In this document: piece after piece, positions 4,040-53,412 of the stretch
Position numbering within the stretch: the stretch's first letter is position 1
How the letters are laid out: every line of letters starts with the position of its first letter
Assembly: GCA_002989075.1 (NCBI GenBank)
Contig: PSQN01000004.1
Coordinates: forward strand, 1,178,001-1,242,000
DNA length: 64,000 nucleotides
Origin: Arthonia radiata
Taxonomy: Eukaryota > Ascomycota > Arthoniomycetes > Arthoniales > Arthoniaceae
Direction: 5' to 3'
Position numbers and translations under genes: made by a program
Notes under the pieces: model-generated
What the model was told of the DNA's origin: nothing
Database searches by the model: none
Seen by the model: only the letters and a program-made list of their open reading frames with translations

Positions 4040-5566
4040 TCACATCACATACAAAAGATTCGTATCTGGGATGAACGTCAGTACACAGTAGATAACACTG
4101 ATCGGCAGCATCAACTTACTCAATGGATGACTCGAGCTCAACTGGGGCTTCTGGCTGTACTTCCCCTCCAGCTCGTCTCTGATGCTGTTCAGCAGCTGCA
4201 CGTAGCTCTGCTGCGGGTTCTTCTTCAGCGCCGTGACAAAGGCGTACGACATCGCACCCGTAGCTTGTCCGCCGATCGAGGCGTCCGCACTAGTCTGCGT
4301 GTCTTTGCTGCCCGACCACATGATGACATCGGCTGGAGACGTTTTCGTCGCGAGATTGCGCTTGTATTTATCATCGCCAGTCATTGCTTTCTTCGCGAAG
4401 CCTGTGAGCGTGGAAGCGATGCCGCCAAGATCTCCTCTGGCATATGAGGATACGATGCCGAGCAGACCCTGGCCCGCTTCCTTCGCCAAGTTGGGCTCCT
4501 TGAGTACGCCCTGCGTGCTGTAGATGTACGGCAAATCCAGCGCGGAACCAGAATGGCATGAGTCGAAGATGGCTGTCAGTCGGACGCCGGCTTGGAGAGG
4601 CTTGACCATGATGTTGTGCATGTCATCGTCAACAATGTGACCATTCTGACGGAAATCTACGGGATAGATGACTTCATCGTATCCATCTTCCTCATCACCA
4701 TCTAGATCTTTTGTTTGACCACCATGGCCTACCAGAGGATTAGTCAGAGCGCTTGAGAATGCCCAACACGCTCGAGCTTACCAGAGTAATGGAAAAACAG
4801 CGAATCGTTTGGTTTCGCATTTGCCACCAGCCACTGCATGGCTCTGATGATGTTTACCCGTGTTGGCTGACTCATTTCCTCGGTGAAATCATCTCGCAAT
4901 ATGACCATATCGTCTCGACGGTAGCCAAAGTGCTCGTTCAGATATGTTGACAAGTTTTTGACGTCATTGTGGCATCCGGCCAGTGTCCCACGCTGGCCCG
5001 TGTAATTGATGCCGATCAGCAATGCCTTCCTCTTGCCCGTGCAATTCGAGTATTGGAATTGATAGCCTTGTGGAGCACCCGCGCCAAATGTCTGCATCTG
5101 TTGAGGCGGCGGGGGAGGTCGACCATAGCCATAGCCGCTGCCGCTGCCGCTGTTGTATTGCTGTGGTGGAGGCCTACCACTGGGGGGCTGGAATCCGTTT
5201 TGAGGTGGGTAGCCATACTGAGGAGCGGGAGAACCCTTCCCAATGTTAGCGCGTGCATGATATGTGAGCCGGTAGTGCACTGACTTGCGGCGGATATCCA
5301 CCGTATGGCTGTTGTGGCGGCCCTTGCGCGTTGTAGCTGTAGCCTGGCTGAGGTGACGGGGAGCCATAGCCTGGCTGGGGTGGAGGAGCGCCATAACCTG
5401 GCTGGGGAGGAGGAGAGCCATAGTATGGCTGCTGAGGATTCCTAACGGCCTTTCTAAGCTGTGCACTTATGAACTTATCGGACAGAGCTTACGGGTAGCC
5501 TCCTTGAGGTGGGTATGGATTGTGTTGTTGGCCACCATGGTAGCCTTGTCCTGGGAAAAACGACAT
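4040..5566 (-). CDS. MCA1: Type I metacaspase, 439 aa
   Basis: Cysteine protease of clan CD, cleaving after Arg/Lys, with roles in fungal stress response and ageing. Model complement(join(4040..4065,4120..4728,4782..5235,5285..5441,5493..5566)). Residues 1 to about 130 are a Pro/Gln/Gly/Tyr-rich prodomain with PQPGYG-type repeats, typical of type I fungal metacaspases. The p20 domain starts at [13 protein letters not shown]. The catalytic dyad is His230 (YSGHGG, split by intron 3) and Cys286 (DSCHSG). The last exon encodes only eight residues and matches the usual family ending. Intron 2 is 49 nt, with its branch site CTAAC close to the acceptor. Length and domain order are normal. Confidence 0.95.
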
Positions 5567-7107: not shown

Positions 7108-8053
7108 CTTCCCAGACAAGGATGTGACTAAAGTGGAAGATGAACGGAGAGAACGTAAGGAGGATGAGAAGAGCGAGAGTTTTGGAGGGTTAAAGAGGGG
7201 TGAAGAAGTCAATTGAAAAGGCGTGGCTTCCAAGTTGCTGGTAGACCTGTCAACACGACCTGCTCCGTGGAGCTACGTCAATGGTCCGTGCGCTACTACC
7301 TGACAGAATCGGTTGTCGACCTCGAAACAACGATCTCGACAACAGCTCTTTACAACGTCATCTAATTCATACAACACAAACGGTTTCTGCAGATGCCAGT
7401 ATTCAAGCTCATGAGTCTGTTCGGGGGTTCCAGACACTGTCAAAGCTTTTGCTGTAAGCTCTCCTACGTGGTAGGTATCCGCACCGTAACTTTGAAGATC
7501 GGATAATATCCGCTAGCAAAACGACGCTAAAACCCACGCTTCTTGTCTCGTTTCCAGAGAACTGTCCTATGTCAAGTCTTCATCTTGTTCTTCCTCGCTT
7601 TTCCGAGTTCACGAGAGGAAGATCCGATTTGAGTGCACTCAATACTTGTTTTGGTCCAGGTTTTGGCCTACATTGTCCAGCACTGTCGTGAGGTCCCACT
7701 CAGGAAGGTCCCACAGCGCGAAGGTTGCGGCGAGCGTGTTTTGACGCTTCTCAACTGCTACAATGATCAGGAAGAGCTCACTTGAAACCAGTCACTAGCT
7801 GGCAACGCGAGATACTACGTTGACATCGCAGCGCTGCGACCAATCATGAATCTTCGACAGGATGTACAGCCGCCGTCGCAGCTCCAGCTCCTGCAGGAGA
7901 CGTGCATGGCGCTTCTGCGGCACCCGCCTCGATCACTCGGGCGTGTGATAAGGCAAAATTGTCAGTACAATTGTTGCTGTAGATGTCGCCCATGAAATTA
8001 GGCAGACTACGTTCACGATAGCAGTCGCTGCTTTGCCACGCATGTGACTTGCC
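7108..8053. other. Divergent promoter region between CHO1 and the NLR gene
   Basis: 946 bp between two divergent starts. I see no gene and no obvious repeat. Confidence 0.5.
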
Positions 8054-11000
8054 ATGGATCCTGCAACGTCGTTCAGCATCGCTTGCGGGGTTGTGCAACT
8101 TCTACAATTTGGCATCGAAGTCGGCCGCGAGTGCTACGAGATCTACAGCAGCACATCCGGCTTGACCAACAAGCACGAGTTTTTGAAGAGTTCTGCCGAT
8201 CAGACTGGGCAGCTTGTACAGCGAATACAAGCTCGTCTGCAGAATGTCTGCTACGTTCAAGCGCTTACCAAAGAGGACAAGCAGGTCCTTGACGCTGCCG
8301 AAACTTGCTCAGCAGCAGCTCGGGAACTTCAGGAAGTTTTCGATGACTTGCAGCCGTACAGTACACAAAGCAGGCATCGAGCGCTGGAACTGATGTTGAA
8401 AGGTCGTCTGAAGAGAGCTAAAGTAGAGGATCTAAACAACAGAATGCGAGGCTGTCAAAAATCCATGGACACGGCTTTGCTTGCAAGCATTAGGTGAGAT
8501 TGGTCCCTCAAAGCTGTGTGTTCTGCGAGATCAATAAGGAATCTGCATGTTCAAACTCAGACGCATATTTTGCGCGTGCGCGCACAGACTGCCCCTTTGA
8601 TCGGTAAAGTAGCAAAAAATTGGCACAAATTTGGCCTCTCCGTCACAGTTAAGTTTTTTGTGTTGCTATGATAGAGTTCGAGCCGCGTTGGCGCCTATAC
8701 ATCAAACAATCAGAACCTCTTGGCCCAAGAATTTTGGAAGCTGACCGCCCTGCAGTCAAAGAATCGATGTGGCCGATAGCAAACAGAATGAAATCATGAG
8801 GCAAATCGACCTCGGGGCATTGCAGCAGACGCGGGGCTTCCAGGAAATAGCTTTACTCATTCAGGGATTGATCAATCGTCTGCAAGAAGTGGAAATCAGC
8901 TCCAAGGACCAAGGACGGCAGACAAGAGCGCTCATTGAACAGACCCATCAAGATAACCGTGATCATATACAGCTGAAACAGCTTCTCGATAGCCTGTACT
9001 TCCCGGCTATAGCTGCGAGAGAAGAAAACATACATGAAGCGTATTCTGACACGTTTCAGTGGATCTTCGACGATGCAGAGGACGCCGTTCGACCATGGTC
9101 TAACTATGTCCACTGGCTGCGCAAAGACCGCAGGTTATACTGGATCAATGGCAAAGCAGGCTCCGGCAAATCGACACTAATGAGCTTCATTGTCCATTCG
9201 CGAAAATTGAAAGAGCATTTATACGCTTGGGCTAGTGCCTCGCAGTCGGACCTCGCAGTCTTGCACCATTTCTTCTGGCGTAGCGGCACGGTTGAACAAA
9301 AAAGCAAGTCCGGGCTCATACGCACTCTAATGAGACAGCTCGTTACAGCCCGTCCATCCCTGGTAGTCGCGCTAGATACAATGCCGACGCAACCCATTAC
9401 ATGGACTGAAGCAAGACTAAGAGCAGACTTTGAAGCGCTAGTTGAGGAATCGAAACAGGGACCTCGTCCCTTGAACATCGCCATTTTTATTGACGGTCTG
9501 GACGAATACAATGGCAGCCACGTCGATCAAGTCGACCTTGCCGCTTTTGTGAAGCGCCTGTGTATTCATCCCAATGTGAAGGTCTGCGCTTCAAGTCGTC
9601 CAGAGCAGGCTTACCGAGACGCATTTGACTATTGTGCTCAGCTCAGGCTACATGATCTCACACGCACCGACATGAGTATCTACATTCGTGGTCGTATTGA
9701 ATCGATGCCTACACTGAAAGAGCTACAAGATGCGAACCCGAGAGCAGTCCAGCATCTGATCGAATCTATTTGTAGGAATGCGGACGGGGTGTTTCTCTGG
9801 GCAAGCCTCGTTACGAACGATGTTATGGACGGTCTTATCTGCGGAGACAGTCTCGAGATGCTTCGCGCACGGCTTGAGCGAGCTGACAAGACATTAGAGG
9901 GTTTGTTTGAGCAGCTCCTTGGACGTATTGACCCCATTCATCGATCCAAGTCAGCTAAATACCTGCAGGTCATGGCTCTCAAAGAAAACGGTCGCATATC
10001 GTTTCTTGAACTCCTGCTCGTCGACCAGCAAAAGCTTGAGGCTATGATACCAACCACTGACGACCAAGCCAGGAATATCAGGAGTGCCGCGGAGACTTTC
10101 AAAAAGGAAGGCACAGCCCTCAAACGCCACATTGTTGCTCGGTGCGCGGGTTTACTCACTGTAGATGAGCAACCATGCAGAAGTTGTCTTGCGCATGACG
10201 AGCAAAACCCCGTAGGAAGATTATGTGCACATTACAACGATCACATCAACGTCGGTGAGTGGGGCGCTTTGATTCTTCCATGGGGTTGCGTGAATGCTGG
10301 ACTGACGCTCCACCGCCTAGATTTCATCCATCGTAGCGCACATGACTTTCTCTCGGACAATGGCAAAGCTCGCGACTTCTTGACGATATCGGGGACTGAC
10401 GACGGCCTTATGCTCCTTGACATATCCCGCGCATTGGTCCAGATCTCTCGATGCCCTTTCATCATCGGAAATGAGCTCCGTAATGGTAATTGGTCGGAAT
10501 GGGCGACACGAATGCTGAGCAGGTTGATGCCAATCATCAGATCCCTCGACGATCGTGATCACATTCGAGCGGCTGGGGTGATAGAAGGATTCGATGCTGG
10601 CTTTACGCAGACATTGGCATTCCAGAGGCAGCACCGTCCAGAAGACATATATGAGTCCGTTCCGTCTAATTCTAACTGGGTTGCAGTTCTCGGACACACT
10701 CATATTAAAGACACCAGTCGAGACTTAGTGGGCTATGCCATGGAATGGGGCCTTACGCGCTACGGCCTAGGCAAGCTTCAGATATGCCCGAGGGAGGAGC
10801 AGAGGGAATTGGCTACATACCTGTTACAATGTGCACGTTATGGCGAGCTGTTCAGATGGACGCAGAACAGTATGGACGTAGTCGCTCTGGAGCAGCTTCT
10901 CAGTTACGGTGCCGACCCTAATACTGTCCACGTAATTAGAGACTGCCCAGTAACAAAATGGCAGCTGCTGCTGATGGAGATGGCAACTACAATCGTGCCG

Positions 11001-11573
11001 CAAGGTACTTGGGAAGCCAACCAGACCGACTACAGTCCCTCCGATCAGCGAGAGATGATGAGGACGACCACTGCAGCGTTTCTGAAAGCTGGCGCAGACA
11101 TGTGTGCGGAGTGGACTTTCGCGCTACAAGAACAGGATCCGGTTGAGTTCATCGAGTTTGAGACGTTCAAGCTGTATTATGTATACGAAGCCGGATGGAT
11201 CGTCTTGCAGTTGGACGAAGGTGTTGACGAGCATAATCGCTTGCGAGACCAGTTCCCTGTTGCCGACGCAGCACGATATCCACGCGTCAAAGTGGTCGGT
11301 GCTCCGGCCAGCCGATCGCCATTCCGGTGGTTCGAAGACCTCAATCGCATACCTGGTATCTACGAATCCGACTCGACTTTCACACCCACAGAGGAGCAGA
11401 GCAAAGCGCTCGGCAAGGCTATGTACATCTGGCAGTACAGCGAAGAGGGCAGCGGGGAGAAGCGTGATAATGCAGCTGCGCTGATGAAGCTGTTGGAAGG
11501 AGTGTACAGCGATCTGTATGAAACCCACCATCAGGCTTCAGCAGCGCAGCAAGAAGTCGCACCCCCAGGATAG
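8054..11573 (+). CDS. NACHT-domain NLR-like protein (STAND P-loop NTPase), 1085 aa
   Basis: Model join(8054..8493,8756..11573). The 262-nt intron starts GTGAGA, ends TGCAG behind a CTGAC branch site, and restores frame (SISQRIDVADSKQNE). Residues 1-150 form an alpha-helical N-terminal domain starting MDPATSFSIACGVVQLLQFG, the kind found on fungal NLRs (HeLo-like or fungal_N). The NACHT P-loop GKAGSGKST lies at about 279-287 and Walker B IFIDGLDEY at about 390-398. The sequence after about residue 500 is long and diverged. One ankyrin-like stretch is visible (YGADPNTV), but there is no clean WD40, TPR or ankyrin array. Such proteins act in non-self recognition and programmed cell death in fungi; that role is inferred here. 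Confidence 0.85.
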
Positions 11574-29264: not shown

Positions 29265-29902
29265 TTACAATACAACGTGGATTTTGATTAATTCTGAGTG
29301 GTTGAACGCGTAGTCTTTGTTAAGATATACACTCTACTCCTCAAGCAGCCCGTTGGGCCTGTTTACAGGCCTTCTCACCCCAATTCGGCGCTAATCTGCA
29401 CCTACAATGGCGTCAAGAACGCGCCACCAGCCACTAAACCCCCTTAAAGTTCTTAATAACGGCGTCGAGCTATTAGTAGATACAGAAATAACCCAAAATA
29501 GGCTAGAGCAAGAGCAGAAACAAGAGTAGAAGGGTTTAAGTGCCCTTTAAAAAGTTACTAGCAGCAAAAGAATCTGTAAGCCGTTAGTAAAGAAGCAGAA
29601 AAATAATGAATATACTGCAACAAAGATTATAAAAAAAACAATATTAGCTACGCTTAGCTCTCTAGTTAAGTAAGTTAATAAAATAATAGGTTAAATAGCG
29701 TCGATAGAGGTATTTATAGCGGTACTAGTAAAAGAAAATAAGAAGCTTAAGGCTTTTATTATAAAAAATAAAGGCTCTATAGATATTATAATCTTATAAA
29801 CTAAACAAAATGTATATAGCGGCTCTACTATTACGATTATAAAAGATTTTATTCTAAAGTAAGCTTTATACGTCGGAGTTAGTACTACTAGTATAGCGTA
29901 TA

Positions 29903-30352
29903 TATAACGCCGGTCGCTAGAGAGACCGAACTAAGGCTTACTTACCTTGTGTACTTGTCGACCTTGATAGTAGGTATCTCGTGTACTAGAGACTAAAAGG
30001 TAGGAGAGGCGAAATAAATTATAGAAGGTAAGAGAGGCTTAACTAAGATAGATAGAAGGTAAAGTACGTTACCTAAATATAGTTAAGAAACTTATATTTA
30101 AATATTAAGTTAATAGACTAAAGTTTATTCTAAGGTTGGTTATTAGTCTAGCTATATAGTCTAAGGTACATAAATATATTTCTCTATGTCTAACGGTCCT
30201 AATAGTCCCTTTGTCGCGTAGTTGGGATTCTATTGCGATATAGCGACGTTACCGACATCGCTATATTAAAGTCGTCGGGTATATTATATAATGCTCTAAT
30301 AAGGTTGGCTACGCTTAGCCTTGTACTAGCCTAATATAGTAAGATCGTAATA
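29903..30352 (-). repeat. 3' LTR of the Gypsy element
   Basis: 450 bp, aligned end to end with 36548-36997. Differences between the two LTRs are roughly one in ten and nearly all transitions, as expected from RIP. Confidence 0.85.
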
Positions 30353-30447
30353 CAAGGTCCTCTCTTTAAGGCTAGTTGTCTTTAACGGCCCTAGAGACAT
30401 TAAAACCTTGTTGTTGCCCTGCAGTAGGTCTAGTTCTATAAGTCGTT

Positions 30448-31050
30448 ATGCTTAAAGTTAAGAAGGCTCCTAACGCTAACAAAGCGTTTAAGATTAATAC
30501 TGTTCTTACTAAAGTCTGTAGTCGAAAGATGCTTCTATGTTCCCGTTGCTCTTATTTGGGTAAGAAGTGTGTTTTGAAGTCGGGAAAGGTATCGTGTTTT
30601 ATGTATATTTGCGACAAGAAGTTATATAACGTTCGCCTGTCGTTAAAGGATGGTTAGTTTCTATCTTACGTTTATTTTTTGTGTTAGTTTAACTTATTTT
30701 AGCTCGGAGTATCTGTTTTTAGTACTTATGGGTATCGGATGTCCTCTAGGGACAACGTAAGCGTCTAGCAGAAGAAAAGGAAGTCGTTTGTACGGCGAAA
30801 AGGCAGCGCGAAGCTGTTAAAGCGGCGGTAGTAAATTTAAAGAAGAAGCTCGAAAGATTGTGCGTCTAGGCGCAGAACAAGATAAATTAGAATAATATAT
30901 TGTTTGAAGAAGAATGGCTGGCGGCTATGTTTCGTGGTAATATTGTAGATGTGCTGAGTAGCCTAAGTATAAATTTTTGTGATAATCTGTTTCTAGAGTT
31001 AGGTGGTAGGCTACTAACATAGTAGGCTAGTTTGTTCGTAGGTAACCTGG
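30448..31050 (+). other. Opposite-strand additional ORF remnant of the Gypsy element
   Basis: Lies between integrase and the 3' LTR on the strand opposite gag-pol. It opens with a Lys/Cys-rich stretch containing CSRCSYLGKKC and continues with a charged, probably helical segment. Extra antisense frames at this position are known in some fungal Gypsy elements. This copy is broken. Function unknown. Confidence 0.45.
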
Positions 31051-34000
31051 GTGCCGGCGAGGCGCACTAGGTAGTAAATTAGGGTGTTAGTACTGCTACG
31101 ACCAATTAATATTCTAGTTCTAATATCGTCGAACGGTGTCTTTATAGTTAGTTAGGTTTTATTTTGGTTCCTATTGATTTTTATGTTCGGAATATTCTTT
31201 CTATTTTATAAGATACTGTCGTTTGCCTTGGTGCTGTCTATAAGCTCGAATTGTTTCGACCTTATACTCGGGTTCTTAATTGTTAGAAAGGACTTCTGGG
31301 TTGGGTCGTTCTACTTCTCGAGAGTAGGCTAGTTTTAACAGCGCTACGTAGAATATAGAATGTATTCTTATTGTCTTCGAGAGTTTAAGTTTGAACGTTA
31401 CGGGTCTTAATTGCTGTAAGATTTTAAACAGTTCTGTTTTAATGTAGTCGAGTTTTTTGCTTAGTCTGATAGTTTTTAAGTTTCTTATAAGTAAGTAAGC
31501 TCTTCTTTCCTCTTTTATGCTTGTGTTCGGGGTTGTTCTTAACTTGTTATACTATTTTCTCGTTTGTTTGGTAATAAACTCGCTGTTAGACTTTAACTGC
31601 TAGTACAGGTATTTTATATTTGTAGCTATTCGCGTAGCTAATTTGTTTTCTGTAGTATTTTATAGTTGTCTTCTCTAAAGAGGGTAATAGCTATATAAGG
31701 CGTAGAACGGAGTTGTCCTGGTTATATCGTTTTTTGTATCGTTGTGCGCGGCTTGTACTACTGGTAGTAATTGTACCTAGTCGTTCTACTGGTAGTTAAT
31801 ATATACTTAGAGATACTATTCTAGTGTTTGATTCGTTCGTTCCGTTTGTCTGTCTGTTTGCGGATAGAATAACGTAGATATCTTTTGTTTTGTTCCTAGT
31901 TGTTGTATTAGAGATGTTTAAAATCGTAAGACGAATTTTTAGTCTCTGTCTAAGACAATTCTTTGTGGTTAACTATAGTTGGCTAAGATAATTTAAAGAA
32001 AGGTATATACTAACTGCTCTAAGTTGCTAGCTTCCTTATAAAGTACGAAGTACGCGTACTTTATTAGTTTGTTGCATATAACTAAGATAGCGTTGTAAGC
32101 TACTTCTATAAGTAAATCCTTAGAGGTTAGTAACTTAGTAATAAAGTCTAGTAAGACTGTATACTATAGTCTCTTAGATATTTTTAGTGGTTGTAGTCTA
32201 CCGTATAATAAATGTCTTAGGTGCTTAGTTTTTGCGTATACGTCGCATTCTTAAATATAATTCTTGACGTGGTGTTAAATTCTTAGGATGTAGTAGGTTC
32301 GTATAATCTTTTTAATAGTGTTATCGATGCCTTTGTATCCCTTCGTTGGGTTATCGTAGAAGTTACTAATAATATATTGGATTAGATTTCTTAGAACGTA
32401 GATTTTGTCTTAGAATTTGTAATAGTCTTTGTTATTTTTGATTAATTCTAGGTGTCGTTTCTCGTTTTTTTGGTAGGTCTTAGGGTCGTTCAGGATGTCT
32501 GGGATTCGGCTGTCTGGTTTAATAACAAACTCGGTTGTTATAGCCAATTGATTGTATCTAATCTCATTATTCTGTTCTTAGAATATTGTGTGCTCGACGT
32601 GGTCCTTGTTATTGAGGTAATCTAGACGTCGGCTTAGAGCGTCGGCTTTGTCATTCTTGGAACCCTTTTTGTAGGTAATAATAAAGTCGTATAGAGCTAT
32701 AGTCTCTAACTATTTAACTTGTCTGCGGTTAAGTTTCTTTGTTGTTGTAAAGTAAGTTAGGTTCTTGTAGTCCGTATATACTATAATTGTATAGTTTGCT
32801 CTTTCTAGGTAAGCTCGCTATGTCTCGAATGCTGCTATAATAGCTAAGAGCTCTTTGTCGTAAATATTATAGTTCTGTTCTATAGGTAATATCTTCCTTG
32901 AGTAGAAAGCTACTGGTCTAAGCTTTCTTTCCTTGTTATTTTAACTTATATATGCTCTAATCGTATAGTTTAACGCGTCTGTTTCTATAATAATTGGTAG
33001 GTTAGAGTCAAATATTGCTAGTACGGGCTCGATCTTAAAAGCTTTCTTAAGCTCTTTAAATACTGATTGTTCTTTTTGCGTCTAGGAGAATTCTGTCGAT
33101 TATTTTGTCTGTTGAGACAGTGGTGCTGTAATTCGGCTAAAGTTAGATATTTACTACCTGTAGTAGTTAGCAAAACTAAGAAACTGTTGTAGTTGTTTTA
33201 TATTCTTTAGTGTAAGCTAGGTTAGAACGGATTAGATCTTCGAATCTTCTATTTAGAGACTGTGCTCGGTAATTATAAATCTAAGAAATTCGACGGATTG
33301 TTGATAGAACTGGGTTTTCTTAATATCGATTTGTAAATTGGTACGCGCTAATCTTTCTAATACCTTTTTAATATATTTTTTATGTTCTTCTAGTATACGG
33401 CTATATACTAGAATATCGTCTAAATAAGCAGTTATAAATATATCTAGGTAATTACTAAGTATGTTGTTAATTAGTTTCTAGAATAATGCTAGTGCGTTTA
33501 TTAGCTTAAAGAATATAATGTAATACTCAAAAAGTCTGTATCTAGTGCGGAAGGCTGTTTTCTATTCTTTGTCTTCCTTTATACGGATTAGGTTATAGGC
33601 TCCTTGTAGGTTAAACTTAGTGAACTATTGCGCGTTATACAATCGGTCTGTAATTCGTTAATACGTAGTAGAGGGTATTAGTTCTTAATAGTTATTCTGT
33701 TTAATTGTCTATAATCTACGTAGAGTCGTAGTTTGCTATTTTTCTTCAATACGAAGAGTATCGGGTATCCGGCTAGTAATGTTAATTTTTAAATAAATCC
33801 TTTCTTAAGGTTTTTATTAAGATAGTCGCGGAGCGCTTAATTCTCTGCTTCTAATAGAGAGTATATTAGACCGAATATTGGCGTCTTACCTTCTTGTAAA
33901 GGTATTGTGTGATCCTACAGTTTGTGTTCTGGGAGAGCTGAGTCCGGCTCAGCTTTCTTAAACAAGTGTTGAAATTAATTGTATTCCTTTAGTATCTTAG

Positions 34001-36547
34001 CGATTAACTAAGTACTTGTTGTTGTATAGAATTGTTGGCGTATAGTTGTCTCTTATTTATACTTGCGTGTAGCTAGCTACAGACAAGATACTGCGTTAGA
34101 CTCTTCTTATAGGATGTCTAAATATCGGAGTATAGTGGTGCTAACCCGCGTAAGTTCTTTATCGCGCTTCTTATTCTTACTACTAAAGATAGCTTATAGG
34201 GTATTTGTTCCGTAGAACGACTCTTGTTTAGAGTGCTTGTACCTAGTAAAGAGGAGTTTCTTAGTTCTCTAATATACTTCTAAATTATATTGTTGTAACT
34301 AAAGTATACCTAGTACAGCGTAGTGCTAGTTAATATCTACGATATTATAAGTAATTTCTTTCTAATAGTTCTTAATTATTATACCTATTAGCGAAGTTTT
34401 ATAGTCGACTCTTTTCTCTACCCCTTAAAATTTAGACAGTACGTAAGGTAATTTCTTTTTTTATATTTATATCTAGTACTCCTTAACGCAGCGTATTAAA
34501 ATAAAGTTGCCTGTTACGTTTAAATTAATTATAATTTTAATATTCTTATAGTTTATTGTTGCCTAAGTATATAGATATGTTTCGTAAGAAGCTAAGCTTA
34601 TACAGAGCTAGACTCTTAAAGAGTCTAACCGTTAGACGAGCCGGTACTGCTACCCTTAAAGTAGTCGATCTAGTCTTTTTTCTATTAATTGTGTACGTTC
34701 TGGAGTAATCTAGGTACTAGAACTTATTGTCGGTTGATTTGCTGTAAGAATTCCTGTATAAGGTGTCTTAGTACTGCTCTTATTATAACGTTTAGTTTGT
34801 TGTTTACGATCTCTACTTTAATTATGCAACTATCGCTGGTTAAAACTCGTTGTATTTATAGGTTGTATATTGTTAGTTGAAGATATTAGTACTAACTATA
34901 TAATTCTAGACTCCTAATAAGGTAGTCTACTAGTTGTCGTAAGCGTAAGTAAATATATTTTAGAATATCGTTAATATCTCTATTAGCGCTTAACTTCTTA
35001 TTATAGAAGGCTAACTAATAAAGTCTCTATATTATTCTTTTCTAACGGATTAGAGTTTGTTCTTTCTAGTTAGTATCGTCCTCGAGCAAGAATTCTGTAC
35101 CATTAGAATCTATATTTTTGTCTTTAAGTCGTTGTCTTGCCTATAACGCATCGTAGCTACTATCTTGCTTAGCCTCTACGGTCTATTCTTTCTTAGATTC
35201 TCCTTAAGTTTTTAGGTAAGGTGACCTAGATCGTCTTCGAGTAAGTCCTAGTTCTTGTGTCGAACCTTGTTTTAGAGATATTAGTTTCTTTAGCTATTAT
35301 TTTAACTCTAATTTATTAGATTTATAGATCGTATAATTATTATTGTAGCACACAGTTTAGGATAGTGTTTCGTGTAGTACAACGGTATCTCGTACCTATT
35401 GCCTTGAAATTGTACGGTTAATGTTATTTCAGTCCTATAGATTTTATTGTTCCTGTTTTATTTGTTGTTCCTTTGTTTCTTTCTATAACTCAATGTCTGT
35501 ATCCTAGTTCTTATGTAAGTTAAATAAGTTCTATTTGTTATACTTTTTGTTAGAAGTAACCTAGTGGATGTCCTCCTGTATCTAAGTAGTTATATTAAAA
35601 TGTTGTCGTAGAAAATAGAGTCTCTAGAGTCGATCGTTGTACTTGTTTCTACCAGTACTATTGAACTATTGTTTCTTAGAACAGTATTCTTTAACTTAAT
35701 GCTCTGGTTTTCTATAATACAAGCATAGCTTATTCTTTATTCTGTATTCTTATTTCTAGTTATTTAGTTTTCTACGGAGCTTTATAAAGTCTAATTCTAT
35801 TGGATTACCCTAGTCTTATTGTAAGTTGTACTTACTCTAAGTTTAGATAAACTTATCTAAGTTAGTTCCTTTCTTTTCTAACTGTCGTTCGAAGTTGCTG
35901 TCGTTAATTTCCTTGACTCGTTCTATAAACTTTTCTAGTTTAGTAAACTTTTCTCTACGGATATATATAATTTCCTTAATATAGTCCTTTAAGCCTTTAT
36001 AAAAGGCGTCGACTAGGGGTCCTTTATTCTATCCGGTTTAGTTAGTATACTATAGGAACTTAGCGGTATATCGGCTAGCTAGTTCTATCTAACGGAGTGT
36101 CTTAAGTTTGCGTACAGCAGTACGTCTAGAATCTGTATCTCTGTACATCTATTGAAGCTTTTGCTAAAACGCAGCAAAGCTAGAGAAGAGCTCGTTAGTC
36201 TCTTTCTATCGTTTGTTAGGTACCTTATAGAGGTAGTCTTTAAGATAAAAGTTAAACTATTTATATATCTCGCTATCTATACAGAATACGGCAAATAAAA
36301 CTATAGTGCTGTTATTCAGGAACTAATCCTTATAAGTCTTAAAATATATAGTCAAGTGTATTAGAAATAAAGTAAGTTTAAAACGTTTATTAAAAAAGCT
36401 TTTACTTATCTTAGTGTTAATATCCAATATCTTACCTATAGCGGCCATTTTGCTAGCTAGCCTGTTCGTAGCGTTGCGGCTGTTAGGTACTAAAGTAATA
36501 GACATAATTAATCTACTTTTTCTGCTTTTATAGCGAGTCTATTAAAG

Positions 36548-36997
36548 TGTAACGTCGGTCGCTAGAGAGACTGAACTAAGGCTCACTTACCTTGTATACT
36601 TATCGACCTTAGTAGTAGGTATCTTATGTGCTAGAGACTAAAAGGTAGGAGAGACGAGATAGATTACAAAAGGTGAGAGGAGCTTAATTAAGATAGATAG
36701 AAGATAAAGTACGTTACTTAAATATAGTTAAGAAACTTGTATTCAAATATTAAGTTAATAGACTAAAGTCTATCCTAAGGTTAGTTATTAGTCTAGCTAT
36801 ATAGTTTAAGGTATATAGATATGTTTCTCTGTATCTAATAGTTCTAATAGTCCCTTTGTCGCGTAGTCGGGATTCTATTGCGATATAGCGACGTTGCTAA
36901 CGTCGCTATATTAAAGTTATCGGATATACTATATAATGCTCTAATGAGGTTAGCTGCGCTCAGCCTTATACTAGCCTAATATAGTAAGATCGTAACA
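36548..36997 (-). repeat. 5' LTR of the Gypsy element
   Basis: 450 bp, plus-strand ends TGTAACG and CGTAACA form the terminal inverted repeat. It pairs with 29903-30352. Confidence 0.85.
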
Positions 36998-39900
36998 AGA
37001 ATAAGTATTACTTAGTAGTAATCTAGTAAATTAGGTAGTAGAAGGACTATAAGCAGTATTACTCTATTTTAGTGTAGTTCGACAATATTAAGTAGTACAA
37101 CTTAATATTTTAGAAGACCGAGGTAAGTATTAATAGATATACAATATACACTAATTATTTTAAGCGTTGTTTGATACTAGTACAATATATAAAGTACTAC
37201 CGATTTAGCTATAAAGTAGTCTAATATAGCAACGAAGAATACTACGGTCGATATAGCTAAAGAGGCTATATATACAAAAACTGCTCTAATAAACTATAGT
37301 ATATTAACTACAGCTAGACTTACCTAGCTTAGGTTGCTTACTGTACAGAATTTAAGAATTAACGCTATAATATACAGTTTAAATAAGTATATACTAGACC
37401 TAAACTATAGAGTACCAGCTAATAGAGACAATATAGCTATCAGGGGTCTTCTCGGTACTTTAGTATAATATAGGTAAACGTAAGATTACTTGCAATAGTA
37501 TATTTAATAATAAGACATTACGTAACTTTAGTGCTATTGTAGTATAAGAGCTATACTCGTTTATATAGCAGATTAGAGTCTAATAACTCTATTAGTAGTA
37601 TCGTTATATTAGATATAGTTTTTTTCTATAGATTGCTTTTAAGCGCAATTTACTGCTAATTTATAGTTAGATCGCTATTAAACGGGCTTATAGATAAATA
37701 AGTTACTTGAAACAATATTAGTAGCAATTAAGTCTATAAATATAGTAGCTGCTACGTTATACTTACCGATACGAGTTATCCTCTTATTTTTAGTTTATAT
37801 CTCGTCTATTAAGCTGTAAGCAGAAGAACAAGAAATTCTCGAGAAATCTCTATAACTAATTATTAACGCAATTATAGAAACTAAGAAATAATATATTACG
37901 CTCAATATACTCGTTACTAGAGACTTTAACCGATACAATCTACTTTAAGGTAGCTCTAAAGCTATAGAACAAGGTCTTTAAGACAAAGCTAATATACTAT
38001 ATAAGCTTATTAAATCGCAGAATCTCTGTTCCTTACTTTTAACAGAGACTATTACTTTTAAGGAGGCTCTCAAGTTGTCTACAATTAACCTTGTTTTTGC
38101 GTTAGCTTAGCTCGCCGAGGAAGTTATTTAATGCTCGACTCTCTTTAATAACTACGAATTAAATTATCTATTAATTTAGACAGTCTTTACGATTAAAGCG
38201 CCTATAACGGTATAAGCTTAAAAACATAACTTTAAACAGGCCCTTTAGGCTAAAATTAATGCCTATGTTTTAGAAGAAGTTTAGTACTAGAGCGTTAAGC
38301 GTACAATAAATCTAATAATCGATTTTTAAGAAGTAAGACTAGTAGAGATAGTTTATAAAGCTCTAAATCTATACTATTCTAAATATAAGCCTTTGCTATA
38401 TATAAAACGTTGGTAGTTGGCCGACTTTACAGTACTACAAAACAATTACTACCGTAAATAGAACGCAGTACGCTCTACTCGCCGCTAAAGTACTAAGTCT
38501 CAATATTTAAACTTAGTAGCAAGAGAGGCTCTATATAAGTAGTTAAAAATAGTTAAGGCTAAAAAGAAAGACTACTAGTTATCCTTTCTTAACGATACTA
38601 ATAATATTTAAAGAGCCTTACAATATCTTAATTTAGTAAAGTTAAGCGTATTTATATCGGTACCAGCAATTTAAGTAGATAGAATACTTTATACTAATAA
38701 CATATTAATTGCTAATAAACTAGTCTTAGCGTTCTTTTTATAAGTATTAGATACGGCGGAGAGACAGCAACAGCTAGTTTTTTAGTAACTCTCTAACACT
38801 CCTCTTAGTAACAATAAGATCTGTAGGACTGTTTTTACTTATAGTTCTAATAAAGCTCTAAGTCTTAATAAACTGTCTATATCGGTATAGCAAAAGATAT
38901 AGGAGTTGCTCGGTTCTTACGTCTACCGTCTCTTTAAGAATAGCCTAGTCTAAGCGAAGCTACTAGAATCGTAGAAAGCTGTAAAAATTGTCTCTCTTAA
39001 GAAGCAAGGTAAGCCTAATTATATAGCGCTTAAAGCGTATCGCTTAATTTTGTTACTTGCTATACTAAAGAAAGTACTAAAGTACTTAGTTGCTAAATAT
39101 ATCTTTTTTTTAGTTAAGAAGTACTTGTTGCTATTTACTATATATTTTAGTAGCCGTAAACAACGCTCTACTATTTAAATATTAACGTACTTTTAAAAAA
39201 GTATCTATATAGTATAGCGGCAGAAAAAAGTACTTTTAATAATTATATTTAATAATAAGGGTACCTTTAATAGAGTCTTAAAAGCTATTCTTTTTATACA
39301 GCTATACAGTCGGTAGATACTAAAGTAGCTTATACGCTAAATTAATAACTTTTGCTTCGATAGGCAAGTATTTATACTTATTAACGGATATAAATTATCT
39401 AAGGTCTTACTATATTAAACTAAACTGCCGCAGAGATTATCTTTATTGTCTATATTATTCTTATTCTTTAATACCAATTTAATACAATACAACGTATAGG
39501 AGGGAGACTTCTTTGCTTACGTTAATAATTATACAGCTTAAGTAGTAGAAGACTCTATAGTAGACAATAGAGCCTAAATTAAAGCTAATTTACTGCTAAT
39601 TCTCTGTAAATAGAAAGTAAATAGTAGCACAATATTTAAAACTAAGAAGACGCAATTCTGCTACTATACGCGGTACCGCGATAAAGTAGAAAGTTAGTAT
39701 CTTATATTTAAGGATTAAGAGATTTAACTTACTAGAGATATAAAGCTCTTAGAAGTTATATTCGACTTAGTACTTTATTTTAATAAGTATATTATTAATA
39801 TAGTAGTAAAAGTAACTAAAGCGGCCCTCGTACTATAGCGTTTTTAAAGCTTGTGCTCGGTTATTGCTCGCTAACTATTTACTTTAACGGTTGTATCGGT

Positions 39901-41592
39901 AGAAGACTACGCTTTATTTATCTAGTTACAGTAAATAGCATTAGAGCTTCTATGTTAATTCTATAGGAACTAATATATCGCCGTAGTATCGATTATAGAA
40001 GAGTTTTAATTTAACTTGTTAATAGTTTTAAAGTACGAGACAGCTATCGCGCCGTTTTTAGAGCGCTATTTATTGTAAGCTTAAGCCTTCTAAATAGCAA
40101 TAAATACTCTACTAACTCGATATCCTCTATAGAGACAACGTATTAGCCGAAGTAGACGATTTTTAAGTTCTTTACAACGTATTTAGAAATAATTTAGCGA
40201 TATAGATATTGCTCGTTTAAAAGTAATTAAGCTGTTTTATATATCTTTATAAAGAATACTACTAAAAGTAGAGGTTCTTTAATAAAAGAAAGCTATAAAG
40301 AAAACTAGTATATAACAGGTTAGTAATATATTTATAGACGCTTTAATCTAGAAAGAGCGTTTAAACCTAAATATATAGTATTCTAAAGGCTATTAAGTAT
40401 CTATCTAGGTTATTAACTATTAAACACTATATATAGATAAACTACTTACTATTAAGTAGACTACAATTATAGTAGTACTACTATATTAGATAGTTAGCCT
40501 AGTTATAGTTTATTTAGACTATTTAGCAGCAATCTAGTTAATTTAACGACTAAAGCATTAATTAGAGCAAGTAGTTTTATATAGAATACTTAAATTAGTA
40601 TATACGTAGATAAGCTTTTACTAGTATTTTAGTTACTCTAAGATAACTAGTAACGAGTACGTCTATTAGTTAACTAAGCTAGCTACGCTATATAAAGAAG
40701 AAATTAGAGATATAATAAGATACTACTTAATAGTTAAGAGTAAGATTTATAAACAGAAATTATAATTAGTAGAGAAATTAACAGTAAATATACGTAGTAA
40801 ATAAATTATAGGGTATATTAATAAGACTCTAATAGTACGGCTATATCTTAAGAAGCTATATAACTCTCTTTTACGATAGAGTACAGCAATTCTATATTAG
40901 TTATAAACAGAGAAAGCTAAATTTGATAATTATTTATTAAAGATTAAAATAGCTAACACTAATTTATATAAATACAGGTAGCTAAAGATAGTATAATACT
41001 TTCTCTTTTATTACCTAAAATAGAGAGAATACTGCGGTAAGCTACTTAGTTACCCTTAATTTAGTAATATTACGGTCTTTATTAGTATATACTTAGTAAC
41101 TAAACTTCTTACTAGAGAATTAAGAAATAGTCTATTATTAAAGTAAACTCTAAATTTAGCAACAGTTGCTGCTACTATTAAGTACGCTTATACTATAGAG
41201 CGTCTCTTACACTAAGGATAGTACTTATTTACGTACGCCTCTCCGTCGATCTACCGTACCTTCGCACTACGCCGCTAAAAACTAGTATATCTATAAGTAT
41301 TAGCTTATAGATTAATAAGCTTTATTACAGAGCTTAGCGAAAGTCCTACGTTAATTTATACTACCCCCTTCTTTCCTCCGCTACCTACCTACTCTTACAC
41401 CTATCGACCTACGCACACGCCTAAGTGCTCAGACAGCTAGATAGACGGCTTTCAGGCAATTAGGAGGCTCCTTTTAGTAAGACGAGGATAAATTATGACT
41501 GCTGTTGAGCAGAATTGCTATATATAGTACTTACGTATGCTCATGCCCACTAGGGCGACACGGCACCTGAATAAATCAATCAATCAATCAAT

Positions 41593-48344: not shown

Positions 48345-48845
48345 TCAGTATGGAGCGGAACAACCATCATTGTTTCCAAAGGCGCAGAGTCGACTACTCC
48401 TGTGTTAGGATATATTGGTTCAAAATGCGGAGGAAACTTACTCAGGCTCCGGCTCCGGCTCCGGCTCGCGCTCACGAAGGAAGGGAGCGGAGCAGCCAGC
48501 ATCGCCGAACTCCTCACAAACCCGACTGTTCTTTTGTCAGACTTCGATGGTCAAGAGCGCAGAGAAAACTTACTTCGGCTCCGGCTCTGGCTCGCGCTCA
48601 CGAAGGAATGGAGCGGAACAGCCAGCATCACCAGCCTTCTCGCAAAACAGACTGTTCTTTCGTCAGACTACGTTGGCCAAGAACGCAGAAGGAACTCACT
48701 TCGGCTCCGGCTCTGGCTCGCGCTCACGAAGGAATGGAGCGGAGCAGCCAGGATTCCCCGACAATTCGCAAATTCTGTTAGCCACGGGAAGGCTTGAGCA
48801 CCCGATGAAGAGTAGGCATGCAATGGAAAGCAGAGAGGCCTTCAT
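48345..48845 (-). CDS. Secreted multi-repeat peptide precursor 1 (pheromone/KEP-like), 120 aa
   Basis: Model complement(join(48345..48399,48442..48525,48574..48651,48700..48845)). A signal peptide (residues 1 to about 22, ending SSLPVA) is followed by four repeats, each on its own exon with a phase-2 intron of 42-48 nt. The cores are CELSGNPGCSAPF, CEKAGDAGCSAPF, CEEFGDAGCSAPF and CAFGNNDGCSAPY followed by the stop. The linkers read LRERE then EPEPEP: basic residues suiting a Kex2-type protease, then X-Pro dipeptides suiting a Ste13-type dipeptidyl peptidase. That is the layout of alpha-pheromone and Kex2-processed repeat precursors. The Cys-x7-Cys core is one residue longer than the usual pheromone Cys-x6-Cys, and Trp is absent. 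Mature peptide and role are inferred. Confidence 0.8.
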
Positions 48846-48960
48846 TTTGCTGAGATGATATGGGAAGGTGCTTGAGCGAAGTTTCGGTCTGTGAGTGAGT
48901 GAGTGATTGATGTGAGTGTGGAGTGTGGAGTGAGCGATTGATAGCCGGCCTGTGTTCACT

Positions 48961-48968
48961 TTATATAA
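48961..48968 (-). promoter_or_regulatory. TATA box of precursor gene 1
   Basis: TTATATAA, about 116 bp upstream of the ATG. The paralogous gene has the same octamer at a similar distance (129 bp). Confidence 0.6.
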
Positions 48969-49037
48969 CCGCGAGCGAACGGCAGTATCAGAGATGAGAT
49001 GAACATCTCATCCCGCGCCTGGGAGACTGTATCCTTC

Positions 49038-49065
49038 ATTAGGACAAGAGCCACAGTTCAATTAG
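49038..49065 (-). promoter_or_regulatory. Bipartite promoter element of precursor gene 1
   Basis: ATTAGGAC, 12 bp, TCAATTAG (plus strand). The same two octamers with the same 12-bp gap occur upstream of precursor gene 2, while the sequence between them differs. Conservation of ends and spacing suggests a bound element. Confidence 0.5.
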
Positions 49066-49906
49066 CTCACTATTCACGCAACAATACTAACGCCCTCCGC
49101 GTTTGTGCTGCATATTTGCAGAACGGGCTGTTAGCGAGTTCCTGAAGGTCTTTCGCGAATGCAATGGCCGAGACGTAGGCGATCGCAACTAGAGCGCACG
49201 GGCATCGAGAGTTCGTTTCACGGCTAGCAATAGCGAATCTGCCTGAGCTCGCTAAATGTAAAAGAGGCGCGCGATCTTGCCATTGACATGATTTCTGTGC
49301 ACATTGATTCGTCAAGAAAAGCGCTAATAGCCCGTCCGACCTCCTCAAGTATACATAAAGACTACGGAGTACAATGCCACCACCCGCCCCCAGCGCTAGC
49401 GTCCACTGAATCGTGCAAGTTATACCTTGTACAAAGTCTTCCTTGCAATATGTCTGGCGGTGTTTTGAAACCACGAGCATTCGAGTATCTACGTGTACAG
49501 AGATTCATATGCGAAGTCAGCTTTCTCCTGTCGAGTCTCTTCCCAACGGTTTGAACGTTCATTGTTTGATGTCGAAGAAAAACAAGGGCCGACAGAAAAA
49601 GAGTTCACGCTAGTATCGCAAACCCCCTGGGACGGCTCCGGGTGCCCGGGACATCGTACCTTTCCAACTCTTCATTAAACTTTAATAAAGCAGCTTTGGG
49701 GAGTATTGCAGTACGGAGCACAATATTACTCGATGGTACCGTTTACCGTAGATAGTAAAGACAAGCAGCTTCTAAAACGTTGGGCTGACCTCGATGACTC
49801 CTGCCATGAGGTTATGTAATCGAACCATACGGAACATGACACCCTTCCTTCTGTCGCTCAAAGCGGAATCCCGCACCCATCATCGCCCATGAGCTTGCTA
49901 AGCGCC
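49066..49906. other. Intergenic region between the two precursor genes
   Basis: 3' flank of precursor gene 2 and distal promoter of gene 1. No supported gene seen on either strand. Confidence 0.45.
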
Positions 49907-50402
49907 CTACACCCTCCACTGGCACATCGGCGCCAAGATCACAGAGGCAGCATGCTCCTGCCAATCGCGAAGGAACGGAACGGCGCAACCAGCATCGCCG
50001 ATCACGTCACAAGGCCCCTCCTCATCTCGTTCACGAAGGAACGCGGTGAAGCAGCCATTGTCGCCCCCTAGCTCGCATGCCTCGCTACTTCTACATTAGA
50101 CCAGTTTGGCTAAGAGCGTGTGAATGTAAGAGCAACATACTCGCGTGCGCGCAGGAAGGGAGCGGCGCAGCCAGGATCGCTCCCCAGATCGCATGGCTCA
50201 CTACTGTCTCGTTAGACTGCGGCCGCTAAGAACGTGTGAATGTAAGAGCAACTTACTCTCGCTCGCGAAGGTCTCGCTCTCGAAGGAAGGGAGTGGCGCA
50301 GCCAGCGTCGCCAATGATTGCGCAAAGATCATCCGCCGCCATCGGAAGGCTTGAGCAGGCGATGGAGAGGAGGTATGCGATGGTGAACAACGAGAGCTTC
50401 AT
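49907..50402 (-). CDS. Secreted multi-repeat peptide precursor 2, paralogue of precursor 1, 129 aa
   Basis: Model complement(join(49907..50087,50141..50203,50257..50402)). Exon 1 is 146 nt, exactly as in precursor 1, and encodes a signal peptide (MKLSLFTIAYLLSIACSSLPMA) plus repeat 1. The cores are CAIIGDAGCATPF, CDLGSDPGCAAPF, CELGGDNGCFTAF and CDVIGDAGCAVPF, each followed by LR and mostly by RE or RD. Repeats 3 and 4 share one exon: the intron between them is absent. The EPEPEP linkers of precursor 1 are missing; acidic DSE or EEG spacers stand before the first Cys instead. The last acceptor is AAG rather than CAG. A 20-residue tail with one Cys (MCQW) ends the chain. Confidence 0.78.
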
Positions 50403-50530
50403 GTTGCGTGAATATCTGAACGGGGTTGGAACAGAGGGAGTGTGAAGATTGAGCGATTGAGGTGCTGTTGACGATTTGGGTTAACTACTGAGGAGCTGAT
50501 CTGATTGCATTCACGCGGCCAGAGTCGAGT

Positions 50531-50538
50531 TTATATAA
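50531..50538 (-). promoter_or_regulatory. TATA box of precursor gene 2
   Basis: TTATATAA, 129 bp upstream of the ATG; same element as in the paralogous gene. Confidence 0.6.
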
Positions 50539-50617
50539 TCCAGAGCACATTGCGTGTCCAGAGGCGAGTCTAGAGCCCGAGCCCAACAATGACAAGGATT
50601 GAAAGACTCTGATCTCT

Positions 50618-50645
50618 ATTAGGACTACAATCACTCCTCAATTAG
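50618..50645 (-). promoter_or_regulatory. Bipartite promoter element of precursor gene 2
   Basis: ATTAGGAC, 12 bp, TCAATTAG (plus strand), matching the element at 49038-49065 in both halves and in spacing, 216 bp from the ATG. Confidence 0.5.
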
Positions 50646-51375
50646 AAGAGCCATTTCCTCGGTCGTGGTAGTGCCAACTGCAGTCCCATGTCCATCTGGG
50701 GCTGCGCCCTATCCTTGCAAACACTGCGAACCTCGATGATACCGCTGTCCTGAAATGGTAGAACATACTTGGCTTTTGAAGCGTCGGTTCCGGGACTGGA
50801 AGAGGCTGCGAGTGGATTACAAATACATCAACGTGAGTATCAGGTCGCACTTCTCGCTTTCTGGCCGGCTAGGATCATCTTCCTGTTGTCGAGATCACAC
50901 TTGACCGGTGCATCCCGGAATCACCGCGGACCAGCAGACGTGAGGCTCAGAGCATCTCCATTCAATCAGCTTACGTCAATAGTACCACAAGCACAAGAGA
51001 CCCCAGCACGCCCGCCCACTTCCAACCTCCAATTGCTTGTAATGCTGGAACTTGATCCCGTGTATCAATGCCGCCTTGCGTGAAGTCTTTGGGTGTGACA
51101 ACCGCCGGGTGTTGTTACCAGCAGGACTACGCAAAGACCTGCACACGGAGAGCAGCCACGCCCAGGGGAGACATACTTACAACACGTGCAAGTTCGAGCG
51201 ACGCATCCGGATTGGTTGTCATCGTGGATATATTGTCCGTCCTGGAGTTTTCAGATCTTGCTATTCGTGCAGACATCAGCCTGTTTTCCAACGTTGTCAC
51301 TTGCCATTCTGGTGTGACTCTTGTTCTGGTCGAGCGCAGGAGTGCTTCAAGCTTCCACGGTCCTATTTCCCCTTA
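50646..51375. other. Intergenic spacer
   Basis: No supported gene. Lies between the promoter of precursor 2 and the 3' end of the three-repeat gene. Confidence 0.4.
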
Positions 51376-53094
51376 CTACATAGGCCAAGTAATCCTTACC
51401 AATAGATTCCGCACACAATCTCTTGCCTGCCTAAGACGTACTACTGCCTGCGCTGCTGCAGTCCGACGCATCATATATGTCGGCATATCCTCCGCGCGCC
51501 GACGCTGATCGTCAATCCGTCTCTCGCACTCCTGCAACCAGGCTGTAATCCGTTCTCTTACCAACCTCGCGCTTGCTCGGTTCATGCTTGCAATGACCTC
51601 AAGCTGCCTAATTTGATTATCTGGAATGTCTTCGGTGTTGCGACCGAGGGTCAGCCCTCTTCTAACTCTCTCCAAGCAGTGATTGTGGGAGCGGGACGGT
51701 GCCTCCTCATGCTCGCGGAGCGCGCGATCGATGTTGCGCGTAAGGATGTTTTGCTGAACAGCAGGGGAAAGAGGATCGGCTGGTCTGTTAGGATCTCGCG
51801 TGTCCATGCCAGCTCTTTGCAGATTCACCCGTGCCACGCATTCTCTCGTCACTGTCAGCACGTCTAAAGACTGCAGAAGATTTCTACGCTCAGCAGACAC
51901 CCTGGGTTGTAGGGCTTAAATCTCCGCATTTTTGGCATCAATCCGCCGGTCGAGCTCTCGCAAATATTGCGCGATCCGTAGTCGTACTGCAACTGCACTG
52001 TCGCAGTCTGCCCGCCCGATCTCGTAGATTCGTCGAATGTGTAGCGTTCTCGGGTCCGCTTCCACAAGTTGATCTCGCGGGACTCGCACTTTTCTCCAGC
52101 AGTCTAACCAACCAGCTGAGGGAACGCGCTGGTGGTAGAACTCATGATCATGGAGCGCGTGGTCAATGTTCCGACGGAGGATAAGTCGCCTCAGATAGTT
52201 AGGCAGCACTACAGGGCCCCGCACCTGCGTCGGAGTTGGACGAAAGATCGACTCGATTCCCTCCACGCACACCCGTACATCCCTCATCCGCGACAGCATC
52301 CGCCGGCCTTCGTTCTGGCGGGATGCGTTCATTTCCTGCCTTGTCGTGGCCTCCTGTGCCTCTATCCGTCTGCGAAGGTCTCTTGCGTAGTGCGATACTC
52401 TGAATCTGACAAGGTCTGCGCACTCTTGATTTCTTTGCTGGATTCGATGGAGACTCCTCATGTGCTCTGCTCCCGGGTCGACCTGAAAGACGGGGCCAGC
52501 ACGCGCGCGATCTCTTCGCACTGCCGCTCGGCAACTACTGTGCGACATGTCGCTATCGGTGAGGAAAATGCGCTCGTGCTCACGGAGCGCTTCATTGATC
52601 CTGGTTGTCAGTTCTGCGCGCCAGACGTCCCTAGGCATAGTTTGCGAGCGAGGGTCTTCGTGATGACCCTGGGCGAAAAGAGTGGTTTGGTGGTCACGTC
52701 GCCTTCTGGTGGGAAGCATGTAACCAAACCGAGACAGGGGGCCGAGAAGTCCTTGTCGTCCCCGTATCTGTGGAATATTCAGCGGGGAACATGTTGGGAT
52801 ATTCGGTGGGACTTGCGGTGGGATTTGTGGTGCAATGCAAGGTAACTTGTTCGACCGTTCGCTTGGTGAGAAGTCCCGTGGATCGCTGAGCGGATGTCCA
52901 GACGGTTCTCTTGTCAGTGGGCTCTGTGGAATGCTGAGTGGATGAGTCGGCAGCGTCTCAAGATCAAGCTCGGCGCTGCTAGATTGCATTGGTGGACACT
53001 CATGTCCCGGCTGGGGAGCTTCGTCCCTGCGGCGAGAGAACACATCGCGTGGCCGCTTCTCGCCTATGTTGGTACCACGTCTCTGGCGCACCAT
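51376..53094 (-). pseudogene. Three-repeat helical protein with one in-frame stop
   Basis: One frame runs from the ATG at 53094 to the stop at 51376, interrupted once by TAA at 51918-51916. The intact upstream part encodes 392 aa. After a Pro/Ser-rich N-terminus of about 150 residues come three units of about 130 residues, each with RNID.ALREHE-like and R.RI...L.E..RRI..-like stretches. Unit 1 is about 53094-minus-450 nt onward, unit 2 contains the TAA, and unit 3 ends at 51376. Because units 1 and 3 read straight through the position where unit 2 has the stop, the stop looks secondary. No GT donor nearby allows it to be spliced out. Charged, helical, possibly coiled-coil. I do not recognise the family. 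Confidence 0.55.
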
Positions 53095-53412
53095 GCTCAC
53101 AGTTTGATCTTGAACTTTGAAGGTAAAGCTTTGTTATCGGGTTGCAAACGTGCTAATTGTCAGATTCAGGCGATACAACAGATGCAACTTGGGACTTGCA
53201 CTAAGTACTACTGGGGAGCTTAGGTGTCCACGATCGTGATAGGAAAGTATCCAAGTTGAGCTATGCTGTGAGCTCCCGCAGCCGAACAAGCTGTGCCGAC
53301 ATGGTGTCTGGAACTTATAAGCAACCTGTCAGCATAAATTCCTGAAGAACATTGACGTCGACTGTGCCACAAGCACAGAGGACATCTACACGTCCATCCA
53401 CCTGCCACCCAC
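53095..53412. other. Intergenic spacer
   Basis: 318 bp between the 3' end of ACH1 and the start of the three-repeat gene; no gene seen. Confidence 0.5.

Follow-up and report, generated by a model that had tools for sequence, protein, structure and literature searches.

Tandem genes for putative secreted precursors of repeated, disulfide-looped peptides with LxxR separators in Arthonia radiata

Gene models and peptide units

The window, i.e. the whole stretch of DNA analyzed (64 kb), belongs to a genome of 33.5 Mb distributed over 16 contigs. Two genes were recognized on its minus strand, arranged head to tail and spaced by 1.06 kb. The outer ends of their coding models coincide exactly with the limits of the interval 48345–50402, for which an earlier note had proposed a tandem pair of multi-repeat precursors; this proposal was borne out by two minus-strand models with four units each. 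Gene 1 (48845–48345) encodes a protein of 118 aa with four units and ends at a stop codon. Its predicted model comprises four exons (48845–48700, 48651–48574, 48525–48442 and 48393–48345) and three predicted introns of 48 nt each (48652–48699, 48526–48573 and 48394–48441). Gene 2 (50402–49907) encodes a protein of 127 aa, in which four units are followed by an unrelated tail; the predicted model has three exons (50402–50257, 50200–50141 and 50084–49907) and two predicted introns of 56 nt each (50201–50256 and 50085–50140).

All five predicted introns have GT–AG ends, with GTGAGT, GTAAGT or GTATGT as donors and CAG or TAG as acceptors, and each contains a branch-like CT[AG]A[CT] motif. The five junctions are all in phase 2 and each falls inside the first codon of a unit. 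A second in-frame acceptor is located 3 or 6 nt upstream in three of the introns (ending at 48400 in intron 3 of gene 1, and at 50204 and 50091 in introns 1 and 2 of gene 2, respectively), which could shift the start of three exons; the acceptors chosen for these introns are those that give the best match to the other exons.

Both genes start with a hydrophobic N-terminal leader of 22 aa (48780–48845 in gene 1 and 50337–50402 in gene 2, minus strand), which by inspection is a putative signal peptide and which ends with SSLP[VM]A in both cases. The earlier view of the products as secreted is borne out, at the level of sequence, by these leaders recognized by eye. The first-exon products of the two genes, each 49 aa long, share 54% identity.

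The units of gene 1 (all units being on the minus strand) are NRICELSGNPGCSAPF (48732–48779), NLFCEKAGDAGCSAPF (48606–48651; its first codon has the first two bases at 48701–48700), NRVCEEFGDAGCSAPF (48480–48525, first two bases at 48575–48574) and DRLCAFGNNDGCSAPY, which ends at the stop codon (48348–48393, first two bases at 48443–48442). Those of gene 2 are ADDLCAIIGDAGCATPF (50286–50336), DEPCDLGSDPGCAAPF (50155–50200, first two bases at 50258–50257), DEACELGGDNGCFTAF (50039–50084, first two bases at 50142–50141) and DEEGPCDVIGDAGCAVPF (49973–50026). The last of these lies in the same exon as the third and is followed by LRDW, with no LxxR.

The units differ from one another and all eight contain a C-x7-C core, whose invariant residues (8/8) are limited to both Cys and the Gly preceding the second one. 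Asp/Asn, Pro and Phe/Tyr recur across the units, and the pattern C-x3-[GNS]-[DN]-x-G-C accommodates the complete set. The shared core proposed previously, C-x3-G/S-[DN]-x-G-C, fits seven of the eight units, but not unit 4 of gene 1, which has Asn at the G/S position. Trp and Gln are absent from the eight units, and Tyr is present in one. When C-x4-[DN]-x-G-C was searched for as a degenerate DNA pattern on both strands of the 64 kb, eight matches were obtained, all of them within the two genes; 0.40 matches are expected by chance, the maximum reached by chance was 2, and none of 100 dinucleotide shuffles reached 8.

We read the products as eight different, mostly acidic, disulfide-looped peptides of 16–18 residues. 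The monoisotopic masses calculated for their predicted disulfide forms are 1661.73, 1626.68, 1698.68 and 1699.67 Da for gene 1 and 1649.71, 1590.60, 1645.60 and 1790.71 Da for gene 2; reduction would add 2 Da to each. The net side-chain charge of the eight predicted peptides ranges from 0 to −5, which disfavours a cationic antimicrobial action. The plant CAPE1 motif is PxGNxxxxxPY. Mimicry of this peptide was considered and rejected, as GN is correctly placed in one of the eight units and the leading Pro in none.

Exon cassettes, probable duplication and decay

Six of the eight units, including all four of gene 1, occupy an exon of their own (units 3 and 4 of gene 2 share one), and five are opened by a predicted intron (units 2, 3 and 4 of gene 1; units 2 and 3 of gene 2). 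Analysis with Tandem Repeats Finder revealed an exon-plus-intron period of 126 bases in gene 1. The first two introns of this gene are 81% alike and the third is 60–62% alike to these; the introns of gene 2 are 75% alike to each other. Given this likeness of the introns within each gene, exons were probably duplicated jointly with introns. The cassettes begin and end in phase 2, and units may therefore be gained or lost without a change of frame; if true, this arrangement lets a gene gain, lose or diversify its peptides exon by exon. No report of introns between the repeats of Kex2 precursors was found in the open-access literature, and neither “intron” nor “exon” appears in the main text of PMC6339444 or PMC7329392.

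The whole gene was probably duplicated as well, because the regions upstream of the two genes are alike and both contain TATATAAA, starting 122 nt before the ATG of gene 1 and 135 nt before that of gene 2. The two 401-nt regions compared (48846–49246 and 50403–50803, respectively, minus strand) gave a local score of 87, while the scores of 200 first-order Markov resamples averaged 36.7 and did not exceed 62.

Behind the stop codon of gene 2 (49858–49943, minus strand), two additional units persist as relics, namely CDLGAD... at 49943–49923 and ...GDDGCGIPL followed by a stop at 49899–49858, neither of them in frame with gene 2; the 3′ end of this gene is decaying, with loss of units. Pooled over all 28 unit pairs, pN/pS amounts to 0.57, the pairs being non-independent and single pairs lying above and below 1. 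For the leaders, pS is 0.48 and pN 0.16.

The relics would suit the view that the locus contains no genes, only chance open frames or a dead remnant. This view can practically be dismissed, given eight core matches where 0.40 are expected by chance, five predicted introns consistently in phase 2, and a pooled pN that is below pS.

Predicted cleavage and relation to known repeat precursors

Neither precursor protein contains KR, RR, KK or RK (0 of each). The motif LxxR, by comparison, was found seven times in the two proteins, six times as LRER and once as LRAR, in all cases between units (7/7), and the six junctions between units carry one or two copies each. No LxxR follows the last units: unit 4 of gene 2 leads into LRDW and unit 4 of gene 1 into the stop codon, ending as SAPY-stop at the point where LRER would begin. 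Since neither protein has a dibasic pair, LRER/LRAR is taken as the most plausible cut site, a predicted Kex2 site of the LxxR type. In the extended Kex2 site, as given in excerpts of PMC8528282, Leu is preferred at P4 and Glu is among the residues listed for P2. LRER conforms to this rule; the Ala at P2 of LRAR is not one of the five alternatives listed in those excerpts. Leu at P4 and Arg at P1 are present at six of the six junctions, cleavage at these being a prediction.

The spacers that follow LRER in gene 1 read EPEPEP, EPEPEP and EPEPEPEP, i.e. 3, 3 and 4 whole Glu-Pro pairs, and end at the Asn or Asp that opens the next unit (N49, N75 and D103). Removal of the leader after PVA would, in our reading, give unit 1 of gene 1 the same start. 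If the alternative acceptor of intron 3 were used, the last spacer would no longer consist of EP pairs alone. In gene 2, a cut after LxxR would itself open the next unit. The earlier note had interpreted RERE plus EPEPEP as Kex2-type cutting combined with X-Pro trimming, which is supported as a model, with the site now refined to LRER/LRAR. Searches of the genome revealed one match to P_proprotein, within an 860-aa frame, and one match to DPPIV_N.

The maturation of the precursors may be envisaged as follows. The leader would take the chain into the secretory pathway, and the two Cys of each unit would be joined by one disulfide, giving a loop of nine residues. Kex2 would cut after L-R-E-R or L-R-A-R, as suggested by the published extended motif, and in the case of gene 1 a Ste13-type dipeptidyl peptidase would strip the Glu-Pro pairs and stop at Asn/Asp. 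The units may also undergo C-terminal trimming, although their C-terminus perhaps retains LRE(R). The peptides leaving the cell would number up to eight, all different, mostly acidic and 16–18 residues long.

The lack of dibasic sites is also consistent with precursors that remain uncut and function at full length, as secreted or wall-bound repeat proteins, and the Epichloe repeat protein SspN, which carries an LxKR kexin site, was uncleaved in culture (excerpts of PMC6374014). We consider this rather improbable, since LxxR occurs solely between units, the spacers of gene 1 are made up of whole EP pairs, and the last unit of this gene ends just before the position of LRER.

If cut as predicted, the precursors would work like Kex2-processed repeat proteins (KEPs), yet they fall outside the published definition of these proteins because they have no KR, RR, KK or RK. 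The rule of Umemura, as quoted in excerpts of PMC7329392, comprises three or more units of at least 8 aa between KR, KK, RK or RR; that of Le Marquer, in the corresponding portion of PMC6339444, places cuts at KR/RR and then KK, with the remark that other sites are not excludable for some fungi. In the window genes, four tandem units were found per protein (at least three being the KEP criterion), and dibasic separators (KR, RR, KK, RK) numbered 0 in both. Features shared with KEPs are the leader (recognized by eye), at least three similar units in the class of 9–24 aa and protease-type sites between them; gene 1 also carries Ste13-type dipeptides, which according to the same portion of PMC6339444 follow the Kex2 site in pheromone and other repeat precursors. 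Unlike KEPs, the window genes have LxxR sites and no dibasics, and an intron opens three of the four units in gene 1 and two of the four in gene 2. The dibasic-only rules of both large surveys, as they appear in the portions of PMC6339444 and PMC7329392 cited here, would miss such genes. If LRER works as a Kex2 site, the known number of repeat peptides is an underestimate, and a search rule consisting of a unit plus LxxR, with provision for introns, would uncover further examples.

Pro-domain effectors of the SnTox3/ToxA class, which are secreted proteins of plant pathogens, share the use of LxxR as a site accepted by Kex2 (excerpts of PMC8528282). That class, as described there, has one N-terminal pro-domain and one mature protein, whereas in the window genes the site recurs between small units.

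For UstYa, 18 candidates were scored in the genome and 16 matches were listed, including 2 under the cut-off; among the matches listed, none is located on the window's contig. The observation that no UstYa-type gene is visible in the window was thus confirmed, and among the matches listed it holds for the whole contig. Since no listed match lies on this contig, a UstYa-type cyclopeptide is unlikely. Very little credence can be given, in particular, to side-chain-crosslinked RiPP precursors of the ustiloxin/epichloecyclin type. The window genes resemble these in being multi-core and secreted, as described for the class in excerpts of PMC9233826, but differ in that none of the 16 listed UstYa matches shares their contig, Tyr is found in one of the eight units, and the two Cys favour a plain disulfide. 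A further point against this type is that UstYa, where it accompanies precursors, is on average 3.09 genes off (excerpts of PMC7329392), although only 22% of precursors have one.

The canonical alpha-pheromone and the presumed target of the peptides

A canonical alpha-pheromone precursor was identified on contig C6 (195504–196076), as a 190-aa frame for which no intron is needed. It starts with a leader-like sequence and contains two identical WNHWCHRPGQGCGK cores (WCHRPGQGC), three KR sites and stretches of X-Ala/X-Pro pairs. Two types of alpha-pheromone are reported for Dothideomycetes, characterized by two Cys and by PYGxPxG, respectively (excerpts of PMC6339444); the C6 gene agrees with the former type, also present in other classes. 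One match to Ste2 was found in the genome (contig C16).

The C-x3-G-Q-x-C pattern (24-place) was matched 172 times in the genome (88 and 84), compared to 37 and 50 for the reversed control. The 100 of these 172 that were listed cover contigs C1 to C9, so a second canonical precursor may exist on C10–C16. Among the matches listed, two lie 129 bases apart on C6. The sole other cluster among them, of three matches on contig C2, falls within a Cys-containing frame of 486 aa and was rejected as a pheromone precursor. This frame (C2: 1349515–1350972) contains the Cys-rich pieces CGYYGQVCC and CCASGQYC and a hydrophobic, membrane-like stretch. Two weak look-alikes obtained with a typed pheromone consensus (E 0.14 and 0.71) were also discarded, as they have C-x3-G-Q-x-C in no frame.

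The canonical W-C-x3-G-Q-x-C core is absent from the eight units. Since the C6 precursor carries WCHRPGQGC and KR sites, and since there is one Ste2 match, the window genes are, on this evidence, not the canonical alpha-pheromone gene of this fungus, but a separate set. The suggestion in the earlier note of a diverged pheromone, if meant as the main alpha-pheromone, is unsupported for the same reasons. The two Cys, the Gly and Asp/Asn of the loop, the length of about 16 residues and the X-Pro pairs would suit an additional, diverged pheromone of the alpha type that acts on Ste2, and one Ste2 match is available in the genome; nonetheless, this is quite improbable. A canonical precursor with WNHWCHRPGQGCGK twice and three KR sites is already there, and the window peptides have C-x7-C in place of C-x6-C, lack Trp and Gln, and form eight mutually different units. 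Compared with alpha-pheromone precursors of the Ppg1 type, the window genes share the leader, the repeated two-Cys peptides, the loop Gly and X-Pro/X-Ala pairs, and differ in having C-x7-C instead of C-x6-C, no Trp/GQ, variable units and several introns.

Comparison of the two pheromone copies on C6 with each other revealed 5 synonymous and 0 amino-acid changes. For units 1–3 of gene 1, which form the three pairs of lowest pN, 5–7.5 synonymous and 5–7.7 non-synonymous changes were counted. One-sided Fisher tests of these three pairs against the pheromone copies gave p values of 0.04, 0.08 and 0.11 (rounded counts), which is a hint only. The pooled pN/pS of the unit pairs indicates constraint, yet a looser one than for the pheromone copies.

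Homologues of the precursors were searched for with gene 1, with a two-row alignment of the first-exon products and with a two-row alignment of the whole products. None was found at E ≤ 10 among about 5.8 billion proteins, in a set not shown to hold spliced fungal proteins. No solved structure matched at E ≤ 10, the best Pfam matches of both precursors were below the cut-off, and there was no match in NCBIfam, whose models serve the annotation of prokaryotes. A search of the open-access literature for the precursor and pheromone-core sequence strings revealed no mention of them. Within the genome, a protein query from either gene matched only these two genes (5 each). The DNA of the gene pair matched itself and one place on contig C13, the latter corresponding to a stretch between the genes: positions 49114–49338 are 73–78% identical to C13 1257578–1257813, and no gene was recognized in either.

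A block of AT-rich DNA extends from 29500 to 41500 of the window, with a GC content of 0.24–0.38, compared to about 0.5 on both sides. It is of the kind that repeat-induced mutation of transposons would leave.

We favour, with little more than even confidence, the reading that the locus contains tandem-duplicated genes for secreted, KEP-like processed precursors, whose disulfide-looped peptides act outward, on a host or a competitor. The kept scaffold with varied loops, the duplication and loss of units and the AT-rich block about 7 kb away all point, though indirectly, in this direction. The same processing could instead yield hormones for the fungus itself, with roles in quorum, growth or hyphal fusion. 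In architecture, the precursors match those of the alpha-pheromone as well as other repeat precursors with no known function; dipeptides of the Ste13 type are reported for both (excerpts of PMC6339444), and three scaffold residues are kept in all eight units. Such a role nevertheless appears unlikely: the units have not stayed identical, in contrast to the two copies of the pheromone in this genome, and gene 2 is losing units. Outward action is favoured over it on account of the variable loops on a conserved scaffold. More tentatively, and at well below even confidence, the two genes might represent a class of peptide precursors in which every exon cassette supplies one scaffolded loop peptide plus LxxR, the mixed set being aimed at other organisms. 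The presence in a single genome of a frozen pheromone alongside variable loop peptides offers a test of self-signals versus outward-facing repeat peptides.

Beside the gene pair, two frames on the minus strand (51379–53133) contain three similar segments of ~80 aa, recognized by eye (like R.I..AL..HE); no Pfam family was assigned to them above the cut-off. A Pfam scan of 30 proteins (the two precursors and 28 open frames of the window) identified acetyl-CoA hydrolase, GH47, BAR/PH, caspase-domain, SesA and NACHT matches. The caspase-domain frame (Peptidase_C14; 4043–4777, minus strand) possibly encodes a metacaspase. On the plus strand, at 8048–11570, a SesA frame precedes one that carries NPHP3_N/NACHT and DUF7791, and the two perhaps form one fungal NLR-like protein.
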